Shown: positions 3,461 to 15,932 of the stretch, piece by piece
Numbering within the stretch: position 1 is the first letter of the stretch
Layout of the letters: each line of letters starts with the position of its first letter
Assembly: GCA_008501735.1 (NCBI GenBank)
Contig: QQUF01000054.1
Location: 1-32,606 of the forward strand
Source of the DNA: Calditrichota bacterium
GTDB lineage: Bacteria; CLD3
Reading direction: 5' to 3'
DNA: 32,606 nt
Translations under genes and position numbers: made by a program
The notes under the pieces: generated by a model
Seen by the model: only the letters and a program-made list of their open reading frames with translations
Told to the model about the DNA's origin: nothing
The model's database searches: none

Positions 3461-3484
3461 AAAAAAAATGTCCTAAAAAGGACA
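3461..3484 (-). terminator. Rho-independent terminator after ubiX
   Basis: On the minus strand a 6-bp stem TGTCCT/AGGACA with a TTTT loop is followed by eight T residues (3461-3468). It lies about 60 nt after the ubiX stop and 27 nt before the bshA ATG. Confidence 0.7.
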
Positions 3485-3543
3485 CGAAAGAAACATAAAA
3501 AAGTTCAAAAAGCTAAAACTAAAATTTTCCATTTCAATTCCAA

Positions 3544-4140
3544 CTAACTCCATTCTTTTAAAAGCGAGTTGTCAATTCCGAGTAAATTCAAAATTCTTGC
3601 GACAATAAAATCTGCAATTTCATTAATTGTTGTTGGCTTGTAGTAAAATCCTGGATTTGGCGGAACAATGTCTGCTCCAGCTTCTGAACAAGCAAGCATA
3701 TTTTTTAGATGAATTCTGCTAAAAGGCGTTTCACGAGGCACCAAAATCAATCTTCGTCTTTCTTTGAGCGTAACGTCTGCGGCTCGTTCAATCAAATTAC
3801 TCGAAACTCCGTTTGCGATTCCTGCCAAAGTTTTCATTGTGCAAGGAACGACAACCATTCCGAAAGTCTTAAAAGAACCGCTTGCAATCGAAGCTCCAAT
3901 ATCTTTTACCAAGTAAGAAATGATTTTGCCCGAAGTAACTTTGAAATGATTTTTAAAAAGCTCGTCCAAATCGCCACTAATTTTCAATTCTCGTTCTTCA
4001 AAAAAGACTAACTTTCCCGCTTCCGAAAACACAAGGTGAATTTCGAAATCAAGTTTCAACAAAGCCAAAATCAATCTTTCCGCATAAACCGAACCACTCG
4101 CTCCAGTTACAGCAACAACAATTCTTTTTCTATTTTCCAA
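3544..4140 (-). CDS. ubiX: UbiX-family flavin prenyltransferase
   Basis: UbiX attaches a dimethylallyl group to FMN, making the prenylated flavin used by UbiD decarboxylases (for example in quinone synthesis). The 198-residue length is typical. Visible family features are the FMN-binding start VVAVTGASGSVYAERL (about 8-23), VVPCTMKTLAGIANGVSSNL and the C-terminal block RRRLILVPRETPFSRIHLKNML. The start is TTG (4138-4140): the frame is closed by the upstream gene's TAA at 4144-4146, only AAA lies between, and no ATG or GTG follows before the conserved core. It is the third gene of an operon behind the ATPase and DUF4276 genes, with a 3-nt gap, so its expression probably depends on them. No ubiD partner is in the window. 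Confidence 0.93.
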   Translation of the reverse strand: MENRKRIVVAVTGASGSVYAERLILALLKLDFEIHLVFSEAGKLVFFEERELKISGDLDELFKNHFKVTSGKIISYLVKDIGASIASGSFKTFGMVVVPCTMKTLAGIANGVSSNLIERAADVTLKERRRLILVPRETPFSRIHLKNMLACSEAGADIVPPNPGFYYKPTTINEIADFIVARILNLLGIDNSLLKEWS

Positions 4141-4143
4141 TTT

Positions 4144-4800
4144 TTAACTTTCTTTCAATTTGTTTACCCAACTACAAAAATGCGGACATTCTTCCATCAT
4201 TTTTTTAAGCCCAATTTCCTTAGAAGCTAAAATTCCGTGAGTCGGTTTTTGGTAAGCAGGAAATATTTTTTCGATTCGTTTTGAAGGTGCTGTGTTTGGA
4301 TTCTCGTTAATTTCTTCGGGAGTCGAAAACTTATTTTTAACTTTTTCTAATTCTTTGGCTTTGTTTTTTTCATTTAAAACCGATGCAATGTTTTCAGGTT
4401 CGGAAAATAAAAGTGCTTCAAATTCGTGTAATGCGAAGTAAGGAAAAAAACGAGAGTCGTTAAATTCTGCTTTAAAGTTTTGTTCAAGAGTTTCTACTTT
4501 TTGAATTGAAGTTAGATTCTTATTTGAATCTTCTTTCGGAAATTCTTTAGGCAAACCATAAAAATCATACATTGTTGTTACAATTTTTGCACTACTGTCT
4601 CGAAGAAGAATTTGAATTTCTCTTTTGATATTTTCATAATTCGGAAATCCACCTTTAAAGTTTGGTCCGCTTCTCACTCTTTTAGTCATTAAAACTTTTG
4701 GAGTAATAAAGATACCAAGCCTTTCAAAATGAGGTACAAGAAGTTCCTTAACAAATTTTTCTTCCGTTTGTCCTTCGACAGAAATCAAAATCTTGCTCAT
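4144..4800 (-). CDS. DUF4276 family protein (Toprim-like), partner of the ATPase
   Basis: This 218-residue protein matches DUF4276. It has VEGQTEEKFV near the N-terminus (E9, T12, E13), YDFYGLP (D79), HEFEALLF (125-132), and the C-terminal pattern NENPNTAPSKRI ... PHFCSWV. The VEG.TE and D motifs recall the acidic metal site of Toprim nucleases and primases; nuclease activity is inference. DUF4276 genes commonly sit next to SMC-like AAA ATPase genes, as here, an architecture shared with OLD-type and other predicted phage-defence pairs. The ATG is 3 nt after the ATPase stop, and GGAAG inside the end of the ATPase gene can serve as its ribosome site, so the pair is probably translationally coupled. 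Its own stop lies two codons before the ubiX start, in the same frame. Confidence 0.8.
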   Translation of the reverse strand: MSKILISVEGQTEEKFVKELLVPHFERLGIFITPKVLMTKRVRSGPNFKGGFPNYENIKREIQILLRDSSAKIVTTMYDFYGLPKEFPKEDSNKNLTSIQKVETLEQNFKAEFNDSRFFPYFALHEFEALLFSEPENIASVLNEKNKAKELEKVKNKFSTPEEINENPNTAPSKRIEKIFPAYQKPTHGILASKEIGLKKMMEECPHFCSWVNKLKES

Positions 4801-4803
4801 TCT

Positions 4804-5868
4804 TTAAGGTCTTCCTCCAAAAATATTTTTCTCCCAAAGTTCACCAAGTGCGTAATCTTCCAACCAATTTTCGATTTCTTTTTCATCTAATCTTTTAAAA
4901 ACACTTTGATTGTCTTCACGGTCAACAACAACTAAATCTTTTGGCTCAAATTGATTCACTAAAGTTACGGATTGAGTCGAAACTAAAACTTGTGTTTTGG
5001 TCGAAGCAGATTTTATCAAACTTGCTAAAATATTTATTGCGTAAGGATGAAGTCCTAATTCAGGTTCGTCTAAAATTATTGCAGAAGGCAATTCAGGTTG
5101 GAGCAAAAGAGTCGCCAAACAAATAAATCTCAAAGTTCCGTCTGACAAGTGAGAAGCATTAAAATAGTCATCACTTCCAACTTCTTTCCATTTAAGTTGG
5201 ATTTTGTCTTCGTTTAGCCTTGAAGGTTGCAAGTTGAATTTACCAAAAAATGGTGCAACTAACTTTATTGTTTCTTCAATATTTTTAAAATGGTCTGGAA
5301 ATTTTTGTTGTAAGAGGTAGAGAAAAGCCGCCAAGTTACCTGCGTCAGTTCTTAAAAAATGATTGTCTTCCAAATCTCCTGTTAGTTTCACCTTGGCAGA
5401 GTCGCTTGTGTCGTGGAAGTGGTAAACTTTCCATTCTCTCTCAATTTTAGCAATTAAAGTTGATTCAGAAGGTGCATTGCTAATCCAATCATGTTTACTA
5501 CCTTTAATTTTAGTTGAAGTCTCTATCTCATCTTTTCCCCAAAACTCTTGTTTAATAAAAAATCTGTCATTATTGTTAGGTTCTAATGAAACACTAATTC
5601 TATCTTTAAATTTTTCGTCAGAAATATCTAAGTTGATTTTTAGGAAATTAGAATTTTTTCTCCCAAAATGTAAAAAAACATCTGCACCTCCTACTTGGGC
5701 AGTATAATTTTGTAAATTTTTACTGATAATTTTATTAAGAAACTTAAAAACACTGATAAAATTAGATTTCCCGACACCATTCGCACCAATAAAAATATTT
5801 AAATCATTTAGTTTTAAATCTAATTCTCTAATAGATTTGAAATTTTGAATTTTGATTCTGTCTAACAT
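4804..5868 (-). CDS. AAA family ATPase (SMC/OLD-like, AAA_21/AAA_15 type)
   Basis: The 354-residue ATPase begins RIKIQNFKSIRELDLKL, the usual start of SMC/RecF-like ATPases. Walker A is GANGVGKS (28-35), the ABC-type signature is LSDGTLRF (241-248), Walker B is IILDEPE (about 264-270), followed by a D-loop LGLHP and STQS (297-300) where many relatives have a His. The middle (about 55-200) is a lineage-specific insert. No nuclease domain is fused; that role may fall to the DUF4276 partner. The ATG is at 5866-5868, downstream of a plausible promoter and of the gpmI terminator, so the operon ATPase-DUF4276-ubiX seems to start here. Function in defence is inferred from architecture only. By eye the region is slightly more AT-rich than its neighbours. 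Confidence 0.85.
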   Translation of the reverse strand: MLDRIKIQNFKSIRELDLKLNDLNIFIGANGVGKSNFISVFKFLNKIISKNLQNYTAQVGGADVFLHFGRKNSNFLKINLDISDEKFKDRISVSLEPNNNDRFFIKQEFWGKDEIETSTKIKGSKHDWISNAPSESTLIAKIEREWKVYHFHDTSDSAKVKLTGDLEDNHFLRTDAGNLAAFLYLLQQKFPDHFKNIEETIKLVAPFFGKFNLQPSRLNEDKIQLKWKEVGSDDYFNASHLSDGTLRFICLATLLLQPELPSAIILDEPELGLHPYAINILASLIKSASTKTQVLVSTQSVTLVNQFEPKDLVVVDREDNQSVFKRLDEKEIENWLEDYALGELWEKNIFGGRP

Positions 5869-5897
5869 TTTTTATCCGTTTGTTTCTTGTCTTAACA

Positions 5898-5926
5898 ATC
5901 TTAATCAATTCTCTAAAAATTGTAAA
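5898..5926 (-). promoter_or_regulatory. Possible sigma-70-type promoter of the ATPase operon
   Basis: On the minus strand TTTACA (5921-5926) and TAAGAT (5898-5903) are 17 nt apart, about 30 nt before the ATPase ATG and just after the gpmI terminator. In AT-rich DNA such matches also occur by chance. Confidence 0.35.
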
Positions 5927-5931
5927 CAAAC

Positions 5932-5960
5932 AAAAAAGGGAATAACTTCCGTCATTCCCT
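5932..5960 (-). terminator. Rho-independent terminator after gpmI
   Basis: A 7-bp stem (AGGGAAT/ATTCCCT, 5937-5943 and 5954-5960) with a 10-nt loop is followed on the minus strand by six T and more T-rich DNA. It lies about 45 nt after the gpmI stop. A run of T also follows it on the plus strand, so it could work in both directions. Confidence 0.8.
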
Positions 5961-6003
5961 AAAATTTTTTTCGTGTCTTTTGTGTGTTTCGTGGGCAAAA
6001 AAA

Positions 6004-7530
6004 TCACCCCAAAATCATACTTTTTCCAGTCATTTCTTCAGGCTGTGGAATTTCCATCAAATCAAGAATTGTTGGAGCGATGTCGGAAAGTTTTCCGTCT
6101 GCACGAAGTTTTGAGGCTTTTCGGTTTTCGTCAATCAAAATAAACGGAACTTTGTTGAGCGAATGAGCTGTCATTGGATCACCGTTTTCAGTAATCATTT
6201 CATCTGAATTTCCGTGGTCGGCAGAAAGTAAAACTGCTCCACCTTTTGCCAAAAATGCAGGAATGATTTGTGAAAGACAATTGTCAACAGTCTGAATCGC
6301 TTTCGTTGCTGCGTCAAGAAATCCTGTGTGACCAACCATATCGGGATTTGCGTAATTCAAAACAATCAAGTCGTGTTTTTCACTTTCGATTGCTTCGAGG
6401 AGTTTTTCGGTAACTTCAGGAGCAGACATTTCAGGTTGTAAATCGTAAGTTGCGACTTTTGGCGAAGGAACGAGAATTCTATCTTCATTTTTGAAAGGCT
6501 CTTCTCTTCCGCCGTTAAAGAAAAATGTTACGTGAGCATATTTTTCAGTTTCAGCAATTCTTAACTGATTCATTCCTCTTTCGGCGATAATTCCGCCAAG
6601 AATATTTTTCAAAGAAACAGGTGGGAACGCAATCGGAAAACCAAAATCGCTTCTGTACTGAGTCATTGTTGCGTAATGAAGGTTTAGCTTTTCAGTCGGA
6701 AATTCGTTAAAGTTTTCGTCGTTAATTGCTTCGGAAATTTCACGAACTCTGTCAGACCTAAAGTTGAATGAAAAAACTGCGTCGCCTTCTGAAATCTTTG
6801 CAATTGGTTTACCCTCTTCGAGAATTACAGTCGGCAAAACGAACTCGTCTGTTTTGTCATTTTTGTAAGAATTTTCCATTGCAGAGACAGGATTGTCGTC
6901 AGAATTTCCTTCACCGTGAATCATTACTCTGTAAAACTTTTCGACTCTGTCCCAACGTTTGTCTCTGTCCATTCCGTAGTAACGACCTGAAATCGAAGCA
7001 ATTTTCCCAACTCCGAGACTTAATGTTTTCTCGTGAAGTTGTCGGATAAATTCGACTCCGCTTGTTGGCGAAGTATCTCTTCCATCAGTCAAACAATGAA
7101 TGTAAACTTCTGTAAGTTCGTTTTTCTTAGCAAGTTCGAGTAGTGCAAAAAGATGTTCAAGACTACTGTGAACTCCTCCATCTGAAATTAAGCCAATTAG
7201 GTGAAGTGGCTTTTTGTTAGATTTTGCGTAGTTTACCAAACCGACAAGTACTTCATTGTCAAAGAAACTTTTGTCTCGAATCGCAAGGTCAATTTTTGTG
7301 ATGTCTTGGTAAACAACTCTTCCCGAACCAATGTTCATATGTCCGACTTCGGAATTTCCCATTTGTCCATTTGGAAGACCAACTTGCTCTCCACAAGCGT
7401 CAATTGTTGTGAAAGGATAATTTTTTACAAGTGAATTGTAAAACTCGGGATTTGCATTTTCGATAGCATTTCCATTGGCTCCAGGATTGTACCCAAAGCC
7501 ATCAAGAATAACTAAAAGAACTTTCTGCAT
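6004..7530 (-). CDS. gpmI: 2,3-bisphosphoglycerate-independent phosphoglycerate mutase
   Basis: GpmI interconverts 3- and 2-phosphoglycerate in glycolysis and gluconeogenesis through a phosphoserine intermediate at a dimanganese site. The 508-residue length fits. The phosphatase-like metal site starts with D10 in VILDGFG, the nucleophile is S60 in GQMGNSEVGH (55-64), the substrate region is CLTDGRDTSP, and the second metal cluster includes NYANPDMVGHTG and LSADHGNSDEM near the C-terminus. It follows gltA with a 3-nt gap, so the two central-carbon genes form an operon, ended by the hairpin at 5937-5960. The start is ATG (7528-7530). Confidence 0.97.
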   Translation of the reverse strand: MQKVLLVILDGFGYNPGANGNAIENANPEFYNSLVKNYPFTTIDACGEQVGLPNGQMGNSEVGHMNIGSGRVVYQDITKIDLAIRDKSFFDNEVLVGLVNYAKSNKKPLHLIGLISDGGVHSSLEHLFALLELAKKNELTEVYIHCLTDGRDTSPTSGVEFIRQLHEKTLSLGVGKIASISGRYYGMDRDKRWDRVEKFYRVMIHGEGNSDDNPVSAMENSYKNDKTDEFVLPTVILEEGKPIAKISEGDAVFSFNFRSDRVREISEAINDENFNEFPTEKLNLHYATMTQYRSDFGFPIAFPPVSLKNILGGIIAERGMNQLRIAETEKYAHVTFFFNGGREEPFKNEDRILVPSPKVATYDLQPEMSAPEVTEKLLEAIESEKHDLIVLNYANPDMVGHTGFLDAATKAIQTVDNCLSQIIPAFLAKGGAVLLSADHGNSDEMITENGDPMTAHSLNKVPFILIDENRKASKLRADGKLSDIAPTILDLMEIPQPEEMTGKSMILG

Positions 7531-7533
7531 TTT

Positions 7534-8829
7534 CTAACTCTCAGTACGTTTATGCATCGGAATGTATTTGCGTTCTGTTGAACCTGTGTAAATTTGTCTT
7601 GGACGACCGATTTTTGATTTTGGGTCGCTCATCATTTCTTTCCAGTGAGCTAACCAACCCGGCATTCTTCCGATTGCGAAAAGGACTGTAAACATATCGA
7701 CAGGAAATCCGATTGCTCGGTAAATAATTCCACTGTAAAAATCTACGTTTGGATAAAGTTTCTTTTCTTTGAAGTAATCATCGTTGAGAGCAACTTCTTC
7801 GAGTTGTTTTGCAATGTCAAGAAGCGGGTCGTTTACGCCAAGTTTGTTAAGAATTTTATCGCAGTAAGATTTGATGATTCTTGCTCTTGGGTCAAAGTTC
7901 TTGTAAACTCTGTGTCCAAATCCCATAAGCCTGAAAGGGTTTTCTCTATCTTTTGCGAATTCGACGTATTTTTTGACGTTTCCACCATCTTTGTTAATCC
8001 ACTCTAACATTTTGATTACTTCTTGATTTGCTCCTCCGTGTCTTGGTCCCCAAAGTGCACAAATTGCAGCAGAAACAGCCGCGAAAATATTTGCTTGGCT
8101 ACTTCCGACAAGGCGAACAGTTGAAGTTGAGCAATTTTGTTCGTGGTCAGCGTGAAGGATAAAAAGCAAGTCAAGTGCTTTTGCGATATCAGGGTCAACT
8201 TCGTAGTCTTCGCAAGGGATTCTGAACATCATATTTAAGAAGTTTGAAGAGTAATCTAAAGAATTGTCAGGGTAGTTTAATGGTTGACCGATTGAAGTTT
8301 TGTAAGAGTAAGAAGCAATTGTAGTGATTTTTGCGATGAGTCTAAAAATTGAAATTTCAACGTCGTTAGGGTCAGTTGGGTTTATTGAATCTTGGTAAAA
8401 AACTGAGAGTGAACAAACAACAGATGAAAGTAAAGCCATTGGGTGAGCGTGACTTGGGAAAGCATCGTAAAATTTTCTAATGTCTTCGTGAACCATTGTG
8501 TGGTTAGAAATTTTGTGAGAAAATTGTTCTAAAGTCTCAGCGGTTGGAAGTTCTCCGTGAATCAAAAGGTAGCAGACTTCGATAAAATTTGAATTCTCAC
8601 ACAAATCTTCAACAGAGTAACCGCGATACCTCAAAATCCCTTTTTCACCGTCAATGTAAGTAATTTCGCTTTTGCAAGAACCAGTGTTTCCATAACCAGG
8701 GTCAAGAGTAACAATTTTTGTCGAACCTCTTAAGGCAGCAATGTCAATCGCTCTCTCATTTTCTGTTCCAGTAATGAGCGGAAGGTCAATGCTTTTATCG
8801 TCATAACTTATTTTGGCTGTTTTATCCAT
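7534..8829 (-). CDS. gltA: Citrate synthase, bacterial type I
   Basis: Citrate synthase condenses oxaloacetate with acetyl-CoA to open the TCA cycle. The protein has 431 residues. The catalytic residues line up with the E. coli enzyme almost number for number: H264 in GPRHGG, H306 in GFGHRVYKN, and D363 in PNVDFYSG. The block ILHADHEQNCSTSTVRLVGSS (225-245) and the long N-terminal domain (YGNTGSCKSEITYIDGEKG...) mark the large hexameric type common in Gram-negative bacteria. The start is ATG 8827-8829. It is the first gene of a gltA-gpmI operon and is divergent from htpG across a 294-nt spacer; I could not pick a convincing promoter for it. Confidence 0.97.
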   Translation of the reverse strand: MDKTAKISYDDKSIDLPLITGTENERAIDIAALRGSTKIVTLDPGYGNTGSCKSEITYIDGEKGILRYRGYSVEDLCENSNFIEVCYLLIHGELPTAETLEQFSHKISNHTMVHEDIRKFYDAFPSHAHPMALLSSVVCSLSVFYQDSINPTDPNDVEISIFRLIAKITTIASYSYKTSIGQPLNYPDNSLDYSSNFLNMMFRIPCEDYEVDPDIAKALDLLFILHADHEQNCSTSTVRLVGSSQANIFAAVSAAICALWGPRHGGANQEVIKMLEWINKDGGNVKKYVEFAKDRENPFRLMGFGHRVYKNFDPRARIIKSYCDKILNKLGVNDPLLDIAKQLEEVALNDDYFKEKKLYPNVDFYSGIIYRAIGFPVDMFTVLFAIGRMPGWLAHWKEMMSDPKSKIGRPRQIYTGSTERKYIPMHKRTES

Positions 8830-9123
8830 TTTAAAATCCTATTTATTAGTCAAAGGTGTAAAATATAAGAACTTGAAATTTAATGACTTTGCTTTAGAAA
8901 ACAAAGCGAAAGACTTTTTAACAAACAACTTTTGAATAAATTTTTTCTCTACTTTCTGTCATGTTTTCTGAATTTTGTCAGGTTGGCACACAAACATAAA
9001 TTTAAGATTTTAAAAAGTCGCTCCTTAAGGCTTGAAATCTATTTTTTAATTTTTGGCAAAGTTCTTGCCTAAGTAAATTTCACTTAAAATGAAAATTCTA
9101 AATAAAAAATAAAGAGGTGAAAA
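8830..9123. other. Divergent regulatory spacer between gltA and htpG
   Basis: No gene is visible in these 294 bases. Apart from the sigma-54-type site near htpG, I see TTGGCACAC at 8983-8991 (also present upstream of the ECF sigma gene), a 10-bp inverted repeat GACTTTTTAA/TTAAAAAGTC (8912-8921 and 9010-9019), and an imperfect hairpin (about 8886-8913) that would lie in the gltA leader. No CIRCE-type operator is present. Confidence 0.5.
9053..9069 (+). promoter_or_regulatory. Sigma-54-type (-24/-12) promoter match upstream of htpG
   Basis: TTGGCAAAGTTCTTGCC has TGGCA at -24 and TTGC at -12, with exactly ten bases between GG (9055-9056) and GC (9067-9068), the invariant sigma-54 geometry. Only the last base of TGGCAC differs. 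Transcription would start about 12 nt downstream, roughly 40 nt before the ATG. Whether the organism carries rpoN cannot be seen here. Confidence 0.45.
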
Positions 9124-11111: not shown

Positions 11112-14100
11112 ATGTACAACTTTACAAAGTTAATTTGTCTTTTAATTTTCGTTCCAAGTTTGGCTTTTACACAACCTTGGATGAAAGACGTTGACAGAAG
11201 CCAACAAGACAATTTTTATGAAATCCAAAGAGCCTTCAACGATTATTGGAAAGGCAAAACAATCGGGAAAGGTCAAGGTTGGAAACCATTCAAACGTTGG
11301 GAAGCGTTTATGGAACCAAGAGTTTATCCAACAGGACAAATCTTTTCTCAAACTTCACTTTGGGAAGCGTGGGAACAAAAGAAAGCGACTTTTGGAAACA
11401 ATAAAGGTGCAAATCAAATTTCAAATGCAAATTGGACCTCAATGGGTCCTGCACAAGTCATCACTTTTCCCGGAAATCCGAATTCTTACGGTTGGGGTTC
11501 AGGAAGAATAAATTGTATCGCAGTTGACCCGACAAACACGAACACAATTTGGATTGGAAGTCCTGCAGGTGGACTTTGGAAAACAACTGATGGAGGAACA
11601 AATTGGACAAATTTCACTGACGACTTACCGACTCTCGGAGTTTCTTCAATCGTGATTAATCCGACAAACACAAACGAAATGTTCATCGCAACAGGAGACG
11701 GAGATGCAGGCGATACTTACAGCATTGGAGTTTTGAAATCCACTGACGGAGGAGCAAATTGGAACACAACAGGTTTGAGCTGGAACGTTACGAGTTTGAA
11801 AAGAATCACAAAACTTTTGATGCACCCGACAAACACAAATGTTTTGATGGCTTCAACAGGTGACGGAATTTACAGAACTACAAATGGAGGAACTACTTGG
11901 GTTAACGAAGTCAGCGGAAATTTCCAAGACATCGAAGTTGACCCGAACAACAGTTCAGTTTGGTACGGAGCAAGAAACTCAACAGGAATTTACAAATCAA
12001 CTGACACTGGAAACAATTGGACTCAACTTTCCGGTGGTCTTCCTTCTTCTTCAAGTAGAATCGCAATTGCAATTACAGGAGCAACAAACCCGTCAACGAT
12101 TTACGCACTTTTTAACCCTGCAACAACAGGAATTTGGAAATCTACGAACGGCGGAACAACTTGGACAATGACAAACAACACTGTAAATCTTGGCTCACAA
12201 GGTTGGTACGACATCACTCTTGGAGTTTCACCAACAGACGAAAACCTTGTAATTGCAGGAATGGTAAATAATTTCAAATCAACTGACGGAGGTGTGAATT
12301 TTACTTCGTCTGACAATGTTCCCGGTCAAGGTTCGATGCACGTTGACCATCACGCTTTGGAATTCATAAGCGGAACAACTGCACTCGCAGGAAACGATGG
12401 CGGAATTTACAAAACAACGGATTCAGGTAACACTTGGACAAATATTAGTGGAAACTTGAACATTCGCCAATTTTACAGACTCGGAGTTGCACAGACCTTA
12501 CCTGATTTTATTCTTTGCGGAGCTCAAGACAACGGAACAGCAAGGCGTAACACAAACGGTTTTTGGGAAAAAGTTTTCGGTGGTGATGGAATGGAATGTG
12601 CAATTGACCCAACTGATGAAGACGTACTTTATGTTTCTTACCAAAATGGAAATTTTTACAAATCCACAAACGGCGGAAATTCTACTTCCTCAATTAATTC
12701 GGGAATCGCTGAAAGTGGTGCTTGGGTAACTCCTTTCGTAATTAATCCGACAAACACTAACACACTTTACAGAACAACAACTAAAGTTTACAAAAGCACT
12801 GACGGAGGTTCAAGTTGGTTAGCAATTAGCGGAGTTTTGACAGGTGGAACTTTGACAACTCTTGCTCTTGCAACCTCAAACACAGATGTGATTTACACTT
12901 CAAACGGTTCAACAATTTACCGCACAACAAATGATGGTGGAACTTGGACAGACATTTCTTCAAACTTGCCAAATAACTCAATTACTTACATCGCAATTCA
13001 CCCAACAGACGAAAACACAGCTTGGGTGACAATGTCAGGTTTCACTTCTTCAAGTGGCGAAAAAGTTTACAAAACCACAAACGGCGGAACGAGTTGGACG
13101 AATGTTTCAGGAACTCTTCCCGATATGCCAGTAAACTGTGTTGCAGTTGACCCACAAAATCCGAATGACGTTTACATCGGAACTGATTTGGGAATTTTTT
13201 ACTCTTACTCAGGTGGTGGAAATTGGGCTGATTTTAGCACAGGTTTACCAAACGTTGTTGTGAACGAACTCGAAATTCATTCAGGAACAGGAAAAATTAG
13301 AGCCGCAACTTACGGAAGAGGTTTGTGGGAAAGTCCACTCGAAAGTGCAGTTCCTGTAAACATTTCTACAAGTTCAAATTCTGTAAACAAACTTTTGGCA
13401 GTCAATCAAACTGCAAACGAAACTTTTACGATTTCAAACACAAGCACGAACACAAATCTTTACTTCCAAGCTTCACTCCAAAACGTAACTCCAACAGCTC
13501 CAATTGTTCAGAAAAACCAACCTGCACAAATCGCAAGTTTGCCGAATTTGCCAAAAGGCAGTTTGGTCCAAAACGGAATTGGAAATCCACAAACTGAGAA
13601 TGCAGGAGGTCCTGACGCTTTTGGTTACGAATGGAAAGATTCAAACGAGGCAAATGGACCTACTTACTCTTGGAACAACATTTTAGGAACAGGAAATTTG
13701 GTGAATTGGACAGCAATTTCAACTTACGACGCGAAAGACGAAGGAAACGCACTTTTGCCGATTGGTTTTAGTTTCCCTTACTACGGAAACAATTTTTCAA
13801 ACGTGTATGTCGGAACAAACGGCTTTTTGTCTTTTGATAATTTTTCAGGAAATTTTTGGACAAACCAAGGATTTCCAAACAATTCAAATCCGAACAATTT
13901 AATTGCAGGATTTTGGGACGATCTTAACGGAGCTTCACAAGGAAATGTTTACTACCAAACAATCGGTACGGATTTCATTATTCAGTTTGAGAACTGGCCT
14001 CGTTACGGAACAAGTGACGGACAAACTTTCCAATTCATTTTGAGCTCTAACGGCAAAATAAAAATCCAGTACAACTCAATGAACGGAACTCTGACAAGTG

Positions 14101-15932
14101 CAAGTATTGGAATTGAAGATGCAAATGGAACTGACGGTTTACAAGTCGTAAACAACGCAAGTTACGTTACAAACGGACTTGCTATCGAATTTGGAGTTGC
14201 AAACGATTGGATTACGATTTCACCTGAAAACGGAACAATCGCAGGAGGAGGAAGCACAAACTTAACTCTCGCTTTCGACTCAAACGGACTTACCGACGGA
14301 ACGGTTTACACAGCCGATTTGGTAATCACTTCAAACGCTGCAAACTCACCGAATTTGACTGTTCCGATTAACCTTGCCGTTGGAAATGCAAATCTTCCTC
14401 CAGTTGCAAACGCAAGCAACGACCAAACTGTAACAGAAGGAAATTTGGTAACTTTAGACGGCTCCGGAAGTTCAGACGCAAACAACGACCCAATGAATTT
14501 TCTTTGGGCACAACTTAGCGGAACTTCAGCAAGTTTGAATTCAAACTCTTCTCAATCACCGACTTTTACAGCACCTGAAATTAACGGAAGTGATGTTTTG
14601 ATTTTTGAGCTTACTGTTTCAGATGCAAGTACTTCTTCAAAAGACACAGTCGAAATTATAGTTCACGACAAAGCTCCAACGATTGCAGTTTCTCCAAATC
14701 CCGTTGTTGAGACTTTGCAAACAAACCAAACTTCGACACAAGTTTTGGGAGTTACAAATTCGAGTGCAGGTTCTTCGGATTTGACTTTCGCAGCAGAATT
14801 GAAAAATGTTACTCCAACTGCTCCTGTTGTCTCAAACAAATCACAGACTCAAATTGCAGAGACTTTGCCAAACTTAGGAAAAGGAAGTTTGGTGCAAAAC
14901 GGAATCGGAAATCCACAAACTGAAAGTGCAGGAGGTCCTGATGCTTTCGGTTACGAATGGAAAGATTCAAACGAGCCAAACGGACCAACTTACTTTTGGA
15001 CAAGTATTGCAGGAACAGGAAACTTGGTGAATTGGACAGCAATTTCAACTTATGACGCGAAAGACGAAGGAAACGCACTTTTGCCGATTGGTTTCAGTTT
15101 CCCTTACTATGGAGCAAATTTTTCAAACGTGTACGTTGGAACTAACGGCTTTTTATCTTTTGGCAATTTTTCAGGGAATTATTGGACGAATCAAGGTCTG
15201 CCAAACAGTGGAGTTCCAAACAACTTAATTGCAGGATTTTGGGACGACCTTGACGGAAGTTCACAAGGAAATGTTTACTACGAAACTATTGGAAATGATT
15301 TCGTTATCCAATTTGACAATTGGCCCTCTTACGGAACGAGCAATGGGCAAACTTTCCAATTTATTTTGAGCTCTAACGGTAAAATTAAAATTCAGTACAA
15401 TTCAATGAATGGTACTCTGACAAGTGCAAGTGTTGGAATTGAAGACTCAACAGGAACCGTTGGTTTACAAGTCGTAAACAATGCAAGTTACGTTACAAAC
15501 GGTCTTGCAATTCAATTCTCAGCACAAACTGAGTGGCTAATTCTTTCACCTGAAAACGGAGTTGTTACGGATTTGGCAACAGTGAATTTAAACTTGGATT
15601 TTGACTCAAACGGACTCGCGGACGGAACTTACACAGCGGATTTGGAAATTAATTCTGATGCTTCAAATTCTTCAACTTTGACTGTTCCTGTTGTGCTTTT
15701 AGTTGGTCCTGTTTTAGGGCAAATGACAGCTGTAACAATTGTTCAAAATGTTGGTGGAGTTGTTCTTTCGTGGAATTCTGTTACAGGAGCCACAAGTTAT
15801 AAAATTTACAGAAGCACAAACCCTGAAACAGGCTTTTCACAAGTCGGAACTTCAAACGGAGCGAATTGGACTGACACAAATGCTTTGAGTATTGGCAGCA
15901 CTTACTTTTACAAAATTACAGCGAATAACTAG
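11112..15932 (+). CDS. Large secreted Vps10/BNR-repeat beta-propeller protein with duplicated module, PKD-like and FnIII domains
   Basis: The 1606-residue protein starts at ATG with AAGGA upstream and has a signal peptide (cut near AFT|Q, residue 20/21). Residues about 100-745 hold roughly a dozen sortilin/BNR turns of the form STDGG.NW or TTNGGT.W, which build beta-propellers; the opening (INCIAVDP, IWIGSPAGGLWKTTDGG) is typical of large extracellular proteins of Bacteroidota. Then come module A (about 750-1092), a PKD-like domain (PPVANASNDQTV... 1094-1185), module B (about 1187-1536, a near copy of A), and a fibronectin III domain (1537-1606) ending at YFYKITANN. No C-terminal type IX sorting domain is visible. 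The role is unknown: adhesin, sugar-binding or hydrolase-associated surface protein are options. It is a single gene, flanked by the htpG terminator and a large palindrome. Confidence 0.85.
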   Translation: MYNFTKLICLLIFVPSLAFTQPWMKDVDRSQQDNFYEIQRAFNDYWKGKTIGKGQGWKPFKRWEAFMEPRVYPTGQIFSQTSLWEAWEQKKATFGNNKGANQISNANWTSMGPAQVITFPGNPNSYGWGSGRINCIAVDPTNTNTIWIGSPAGGLWKTTDGGTNWTNFTDDLPTLGVSSIVINPTNTNEMFIATGDGDAGDTYSIGVLKSTDGGANWNTTGLSWNVTSLKRITKLLMHPTNTNVLMASTGDGIYRTTNGGTTWVNEVSGNFQDIEVDPNNSSVWYGARNSTGIYKSTDTGNNWTQLSGGLPSSSSRIAIAITGATNPSTIYALFNPATTGIWKSTNGGTTWTMTNNTVNLGSQGWYDITLGVSPTDENLVIAGMVNNFKSTDGGVNFTSSDNVPGQGSMHVDHHALEFISGTTALAGNDGGIYKTTDSGNTWTNISGNLNIRQFYRLGVAQTLPDFILCGAQDNGTARRNTNGFWEKVFGGDGMECAIDPTDEDVLYVSYQNGNFYKSTNGGNSTSSINSGIAESGAWVTPFVINPTNTNTLYRTTTKVYKSTDGGSSWLAISGVLTGGTLTTLALATSNTDVIYTSNGSTIYRTTNDGGTWTDISSNLPNNSITYIAIHPTDENTAWVTMSGFTSSSGEKVYKTTNGGTSWTNVSGTLPDMPVNCVAVDPQNPNDVYIGTDLGIFYSYSGGGNWADFSTGLPNVVVNELEIHSGTGKIRAATYGRGLWESPLESAVPVNISTSSNSVNKLLAVNQTANETFTISNTSTNTNLYFQASLQNVTPTAPIVQKNQPAQIASLPNLPKGSLVQNGIGNPQTENAGGPDAFGYEWKDSNEANGPTYSWNNILGTGNLVNWTAISTYDAKDEGNALLPIGFSFPYYGNNFSNVYVGTNGFLSFDNFSGNFWTNQGFPNNSNPNNLIAGFWDDLNGASQGNVYYQTIGTDFIIQFENWPRYGTSDGQTFQFILSSNGKIKIQYNSMNGTLTSASIGIEDANGTDGLQVVNNASYVTNGLAIEFGVANDWITISPENGTIAGGGSTNLTLAFDSNGLTDGTVYTADLVITSNAANSPNLTVPINLAVGNANLPPVANASNDQTVTEGNLVTLDGSGSSDANNDPMNFLWAQLSGTSASLNSNSSQSPTFTAPEINGSDVLIFELTVSDASTSSKDTVEIIVHDKAPTIAVSPNPVVETLQTNQTSTQVLGVTNSSAGSSDLTFAAELKNVTPTAPVVSNKSQTQIAETLPNLGKGSLVQNGIGNPQTESAGGPDAFGYEWKDSNEPNGPTYFWTSIAGTGNLVNWTAISTYDAKDEGNALLPIGFSFPYYGANFSNVYVGTNGFLSFGNFSGNYWTNQGLPNSGVPNNLIAGFWDDLDGSSQGNVYYETIGNDFVIQFDNWPSYGTSNGQTFQFILSSNGKIKIQYNSMNGTLTSASVGIEDSTGTVGLQVVNNASYVTNGLAIQFSAQTEWLILSPENGVVTDLATVNLNLDFDSNGLADGTYTADLEINSDASNSSTLTVPVVLLVGPVLGQMTAVTIVQNVGGVVLSWNSVTGATSYKIYRSTNPETGFSQVGTSNGANWTDTNALSIGSTYFYKITANN
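13557..14193 (+). repeat. Internal duplication, copy A
   Basis: This stretch encodes GSLVQNGIGNPQTE ... through NNASYVTNGLAI. Copy B lies exactly 1326 bp (442 codons) downstream and I saw no indel between the copies. By eye the copies are very similar in protein and DNA; differences are mostly third-base changes plus scattered substitutions. Confidence 0.9.
14883..15519 (+). repeat. Internal duplication, copy B
   Basis: Second copy of the module at 13557-14193, constant offset 1326 bp. It shares DAFGYEWKDSNE, NWTAISTYDAKDEG, YVGTNGFLSF, AGFWDDL and KIQYNSMNGTLTSAS with copy A. Confidence 0.9.

Follow-up and report, generated by a model that had tools for sequence, protein, structure and literature searches.

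HEC-01 was reportedly defined as a candidate system in a 2024 preprint by Payne et al. Its acronym stands for Hma-embedded candidate (PMC12111858); among the papers searched, activity is reported for HEC-04 and HEC-06 only. HEC-01 is listed in Desulfovibrio piger (PMC12724379). In the literature searched, which was seen in part and did not include the defining preprint, we have found no antiviral assay of HEC-01, and DUF4276, the family of its second protein, is named in none of the papers searched. Described systems which combine an ATPase with a Toprim domain include PARIS, where AriA controls AriB, and GajA, whose ATPase region governs its Toprim region (PMC12409363, PMC12839542, PMC12796447). 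OLD/Toprim modules near BREX have been argued to act when restriction is blocked (PMC12839542).

The stretch of DNA which we have analysed, called the window from here on, has 32,606 nt and comes from a Calditrichota bacterium (contig QQUF01000054.1). It contains a pair of genes which is an additional copy of HEC-01, an anti-phage candidate already named and barely characterised. Its ATPase matches the PADLOC model HEC-01A (PDLC04175, E 1.1e-143, residues 2-354 of 354) and the DUF4276 protein matches HEC-01B (PDLC04188, E 3.2e-82, residues 1-217 of 218): both over their full length, adjacent and in the expected order, with 3 nt between them. What sets this copy apart is its position outside any other defence operon, at the head of a short putative transcript with ubiX. 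We consider it probable that it is a stand-alone HEC-01, working as a split OLD-like sensor-effector unit.

With PARIS the window pair shares the division into ATPase and Toprim-like protein, and AriB is found among the top fold matches of the latter. However the partner has no DUF4435 match (only DUF4276 is found at E<=0.1) and no AriB match in PADLOC at E<=1, while the ATPase reaches 3.4e-29 with AriA, far from its value with HEC-01A. The Toprim of a class 2 OLD protein is the top fold match, and six active-site positions are parallel to those of the OLD class 2/GajA group, as far as the published description was seen. In OLD classes 1–3 the ATPase and Toprim are fused, whereas the window has two separate ORFs, and the DxD motif of OLD and Gabija has become DxY. 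The UvrD-like helicase GajB of Gabija has no counterpart, since none of the seven flanking window proteins scanned is a helicase. The ATPase is also homologous to mad3 of MADS (PADLOC 1.3e-31, NCBIfam MAD3 1.1e-30), but its 107.2 bits lie below the curated cut-off of 420, and a Pfam scan of 9 window proteins identified no other mad gene. Finally, PtuA of Septu and retrons is a strong fold match of the ATPase (8eea, Z 19.4); the partner of PtuA is an HNH protein, whereas in the window it is Toprim-like.

Motifs and folds of the two proteins

Both ORFs are present and intact from ATG to stop on the minus strand, at the places and with the 3 nt gap given in the original prediction (Table 1). The motifs on which it relied are there as well: GANGVGKS, LSDGTLRF and IILDEPE in the ATPase, VEGQTE and YDFYG in its partner. 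The SMC/OLD type proposed for the ATPase agrees with its Pfam matches (AAA_21 3.8e-32, also AAA_15 and SMC_N) and with its AlphaFold2 model (pLDDT 89.2), which matches the SMC head 5h68 (Z 21.7) besides PtuA. The partner matches DUF4276 with 4e-58; the E-values of both genes are far past chance. NCBIfam and PHROGs gave no match for the DUF4276 protein. The pair had been described as one which could not be named, and here PADLOC supplies the name. As a whole, the original interpretation is partly supported: it stands for the parts and the likely kind of the pair, it lacked the name, and its promoter has found no backing above chance; nor is there a compositional mark of recent insertion. Neither of the two findings which it named as refuting it has turned up, the predicted fold being Toprim-like and the pair no fixture of this site.

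Table 1. Features of the window around the HEC-01 pair. The alignments have 47 ATPase and 55 DUF4276 rows; their invariance is partly built in, since loci were picked by motif patterns.
Feature	Position	Strand	Remarks
Terminator-like hairpin after ubiX	3468..3485	-
ubiX, outside the system; probably ends the transcript of the pair	3544..4140	-	Pfam Flavoprotein 2.4e-44; starts 3 nt past HEC-01B
HEC-01B, DUF4276 protein, predicted Toprim-like fold	4144..4800	-	218 aa; Pfam, PADLOC, AF2
K185, proposed catalytic Lys of helical region (BpOLD K562)	4246..4248	-	55/55; 22/23 profile-found loci
E126-F-E128, proposed metal-B ligands (BpOLD T506-x-E508)	4417..4425	-	both 55/55; 23/23 profile-found loci
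D79-F-Y81, first DxD Asp retained, second replaced by Tyr	4558..4566	-	D and Y 55/55
E9-G-Q-T-E13-E14, putative counterpart of the Toprim Glu E400 and second Glu E404 in BpOLD	4759..4776	-	E9 54/55, E13 55/55; BpOLD spacing
HEC-01A, ABC-type ATPase of SMC/Rad50/OLD kind, no coiled coil	4804..5868	-	354 aa; Pfam, PADLOC, AF2
TQS, presumed H-loop position, residues 298-300	4969..4977	-	Gln in 47/47
Walker B and catalytic Glu AIILDEPE, residues 263-270	5059..5082	-	DEPE 47/47
ABC signature-like LSDGTLRF, residues 241-248	5125..5148	-	D243 46/47, G244 47/47
Walker A GANGVGKS, residues 28-35	5764..5787	-	G28, N30, G31, G33, K34 invariant in 47
Weak sigma-70-like promoter candidate before HEC-01A	5898..5926	-	9/12 matches, not above chance; model may not suit organism
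Terminator-like hairpin after gpmI	5937..5960	-	intergenic gap, then T-run; count not above shuffles
gpmI, upstream of the pair	6004-7530	-

The ATPase alignment contains 46 of 81 loci plus the window. The distant ATPases linked to DUF4276 mostly have EEPE at the Walker B position. The tripeptide TQS, which we take to be at the H-loop position, is found there in 79/79 loci, and most distant partners have THS, with His. Three loci (L167, L171 and L172) combine THS in the ATPase with DxY in the DUF4276 protein, which shows that one mark can occur without the other. The C-terminal tail ELWEKN..GGRP of the ATPase is conserved.

For HEC-01B an AlphaFold2 model (pLDDT 91.1) was built on 55 aligned DUF4276 proteins, from 54 of the 81 loci and the window. 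The top VIA-align row is 6nk8, the Toprim region of Burkholderia pseudomallei OLD (BpOLD; Z 9.3, 169 aligned residues, rmsd 4.3). It is followed by PH0156 (2p62, Z 8.7), AriB of PARIS (8ux9, Z 8.3, 182 aligned) and the Toprim of X. campestris OLD (Z 8.0-8.2), with GajA and retron Eco8 slightly lower; one unrelated row, 3ngl (Z 7.7), appears among them. The best rows, those from the OLD proteins, PH0156 and AriB, cover the model over its entire length. With Foldseek on its own no match reached E<=0.001, and phmmer and profile searches against PDB sequences found no relevant match. Alignment with OLD-like Toprim rows by hhalign is weak, with a probability of 19% for the DUF4276 clade and 30% for a wider DUF4276 set; E9 falls on the OLD Glu in both sets, D79 on the first Asp of the OLD DxD in the wider set only. 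The model thus agrees with the Toprim-like partner foreseen at the outset. We speak of a predicted Toprim-like fold across the whole domain, and not of a canonical Toprim nuclease, because the DxD motif is absent.

A putative active site with an altered motif

According to the description of BpOLD that was seen, its metals are held by E400, D455, D457, E404, T506 and E508, with K562 close by; D457, the second Asp in DxD, contacts metal A through waters only, and the change D457A alone has no discernible effect (PMC6755086). In HEC-01B the residues E9, E13, D79, E126, E128 and K185 would parallel E400, E404, D455, T506, E508 and K562, with the same order and a similar spacing, a correspondence which follows the order of the sequences and not a superposition. 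K185 lies 57 residues past E128; in BpOLD the distance from E508 to K562 is 54. The conserved Glu after the first strand, a feature of Toprim domains, is present as E9, and the DxD motif is replaced by DxY in the whole clade.

Two sets of loci serve as a check on the invariance built into Table 1. DxY is found in all 33 loci detected through the other motif only and in 22/22 profile-found loci with residues at that position, the window being counted. Among 20 rows of more distant DUF4276 proteins, 16 retain DxD. The alignment of other-motif and distant proteins left out the window (L001) and three ORFs in the wrong strand or frame (L003_778, L013_1537, L015_1513); L010 and L013_1479, on the wrong strand, were aligned and excluded from the DxD count. 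The change to DxY therefore appears to be fixed in the HEC-01B clade, in all the members examined. E9 is replaced by Lys in 2 of the 21 profile-found loci with that residue. One such protein (L065:5705-6361, at the same place as L005 and L154) has the remaining site intact; L169 also lacks the Glu.

The behaviour of D457A in BpOLD makes DxY compatible with a functioning nuclease. The DUF4276 clade might be a distinct catalytic Toprim variant, with Tyr permanently in place of the second Asp and an ATPase partner in which the H-loop His is mostly Gln, an idea which we regard as doubtful. If it were true, HEC-01 would form a class of its own among split OLD-like immune enzymes, with an altered metal chemistry or substrate and signalling in an ATP-bound state of slow hydrolysis. 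The residues E9, E13, D79, Y81, E126, E128 and K185 provide a short list for asking whether DUF4276 is a nuclease, and DxY raises the question of how a Toprim functions without its usual second Asp.

The locus in the window and in its relatives

The window copy is surrounded by housekeeping genes, as judged by Pfam. On the upstream side there are gpmI and citrate synthase, with htpG farther away on the other strand; downstream of ubiX there is a glycosyltransferase gene, bshA, on the minus strand. The names gpmI and bshA are presumed from the Pfam matches. The positions of the hairpins after gpmI and after ubiX indicate that the ATPase, DUF4276 and ubiX genes likely form one transcription unit; the terminator scan gave 2 hairpins, against 2.1 expected from shuffles. 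The promoter scan gave 5 candidates against 7.9 expected, so that the own promoter which had been proposed for the pair has no support other than its position.

This lineage is thinly sampled, with one other genome in the family and seven more in the class. A profile search found the HEC-01 clade in none of these eight relatives. The genome of the same family (G001) has three other DUF4276 matches, with their pairs elsewhere in the genome, and a DUF4435 gene of AriB type is found in it (G001:C147:9685-10338); their presence suggests that ATPase/Toprim pairs have been exchanged in this lineage. Seven relatives have ubiX. None of them carries the pair beside it and their upstream neighbours differ; ubiX appears to be a chance neighbour, and a function linked to it was rejected. 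G001 has gpmI on one contig and ubiX on another, and a clean empty site can therefore not be demonstrated. At L039:2388-2870 its ubiX overlaps an upstream gene which resembles by eye an NYN/YacP-type RNase, unlike the neighbour in the window.

The pair has 31-32% GC, its flanks 38-39%. These values correspond to the 14th-17th percentile of the ORFs of the genome (a background of 148 ORFs, naive calls included) and codon use is ordinary; a recent compositional island was rejected. As for the insertion which the original prediction had suggested, the pair is no fixture of the site and is absent from it in all relatives examined; there is no compositional mark of a recent event.

A protein of 1606 aa with a secreted appearance is encoded elsewhere in the window (11112-15932, plus strand). 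It has two near-identical blocks: the stretch from around SLVQNGIGNPQTE through FGYEWKDSNE is found twice, likely an internal duplication.

HEC-01 in other genomes and its possible function

HEC-01 is a widespread candidate, in which a previously unnamed pair has now been placed. At least 549 motif-found encodings are present in the genome collection, and the profile finds the clade in 22 of 386 genomes, including the source genome. The two genes are nearly always adjacent, as is apparent from three counts. A related ATPase lies directly upstream of DUF4276 in 25/27 family matches (15 of 98 genomes); the exceptions are an insertion between the genes (L004) and an ORF chosen on the wrong strand (L010). 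Among the close, motif-found loci 79/81 have an ATPase sequence immediately upstream, including two which are truncated or split (L086, L087); the other two (L059, L080) end at a contig end. The ATPase partner is beside DUF4276 in 22/23 profile-found loci, with an insertion between the genes in L161. DUF4276 starts 10 nt or less from the ATPase stop in 52/53 cases, most commonly with a 4-nt overlap (21 cases). At L046:7620-8760 (G055) a stretch which looks by eye like an insertion sequence separates the two genes and removes the DUF4276 start.

In 6/81 loci the pair is flanked by a DrmD-like helicase and a type III methylase, and a third gene, also helicase-like, follows downstream. One or more of the three clusters (helicase, methylase, type III helicase) are found in 11/81 and none, within the flanking DNA examined, in 70/81. 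PADLOC gives DrmD as the best match of the helicase (about 1e-203), with HmaA weaker, and type III for the methylase (1.5e-230 and 1.5e-205). On an Aeromonas plasmid the order is WYL regulator, SNF2 helicase, ATPase, DUF4276 and methylase. A scan of the neighbours covered 68 of the 81 loci (GC 0.30-0.62), with 105 proteins close to the pair and 87 far from it. Immediate neighbours match single methylase models in up to 9/105, distant genes any defence model in 3/87 at most. These counts, taken per family model, are modest evidence for a link with defence; the remaining neighbours are mostly housekeeping genes. A link with defence operons is supported for a minority of loci; most loci, the window included, lie outside them.

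For HEC-01 we infer complex formation, trigger, substrate and anti-phage outcome as follows. HEC-01A, an SMC/Rad50-type ATPase without coiled coil, would dimerise or oligomerise on ATP; HEC-01B, as a Toprim-fold two-metal nuclease, would dock on it, perhaps on a surface formed by the conserved ATPase tail. The ATPase complex would keep HEC-01B silent and monitor infection, for example through a phage protein which blocks restriction or through DNA ends. Once triggered, HEC-01A would release or license HEC-01B, which might, like PARIS, cut host tRNA or, like OLD and Gabija, DNA, and halt the infection. A backup effector reacting to blocked restriction would fit the presence of HEC-01 inside restriction-type operons, in analogy with the OLD/Toprim modules near BREX.

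It is also possible, if less than probable, that invading DNA is the direct target of the nuclease, which would work together with helicase/methylase systems of restriction type instead of killing the host through its tRNA, the stand-alone copies being a small restriction-like unit against phages or plasmids. Class 2 OLD nucleases are described as nicking and degrading DNA with the same set of residues (PMC6755086), and some HEC-01 loci are inside helicase/methylase operons. However the window pair has no modification gene, which would leave the marking of self and non-self unexplained, and PARIS, the nearest analogue among two-gene systems, is described as cutting tRNA (PMC12409363). Embedding in restriction-type operons favours defence over an addiction or plasmid-stabilising toxin-antitoxin module, in which the ATPase would restrain a toxic nuclease and any defence would be incidental. 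We find such a module rather unlikely, as both proteins keep their catalytic motifs across a wide divergence. In its favour are the adjacent, co-inherited genes (ATPase and DUF4276 distances correlate with Mantel r 0.72 for 78 pairs, shuffle maximum 0.08, uncorrected for host phylogeny) and the presence of the pair in 12 of 72,556 plasmid records, one of them beside VapBC.

The DxY motif of every clade member examined and the patchy loss of E9 could mean that HEC-01B is a non-catalytic Toprim, which binds nucleic acid without cutting it. This is unlikely: the near-invariant E13, D79, E126, E128 and K185 are hard to account for without catalysis, and BpOLD, as mentioned, tolerates the change of its second Asp. 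A housekeeping pair for repair or RNA processing, with a functional link to ubiX or general metabolism, is very unlikely. It would agree with the likely transcript shared with ubiX, and the archaeal OLD protein Cran1 is described with a role in the cell cycle (PMC12796447), but the distribution of the pair is too patchy, it is absent around ubiX in the seven relatives, and ubiX is near none of the 81 HEC-01 loci. The stand-alone sensor-effector unit is the reading which we prefer.

Some stand-alone pairs are found beside genes of DNA metabolism: a gene resembling MutS by eye lies downstream of one (L048:6027-9414) and PriA upstream of another (L058:1061-4806). Phage records gave no match to the pair and one IMG/VR contig did; a search of E. 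coli genomes with the DNA of the Photorhabdus pair gave none. A quick tree of the ATPases groups the window with Thermodesulfobacteriota, Planctomycetota, Verrucomicrobiota and other rows, a mixing of phyla which is consistent with transfer and does not prove it. The plasmid with VapBC is an 11-kb mobilizable plasmid of Acinetobacter (L175, NZ_CP114258.1), in which the pair stands alone, beside VapBC and tet(39) (4114-9060).
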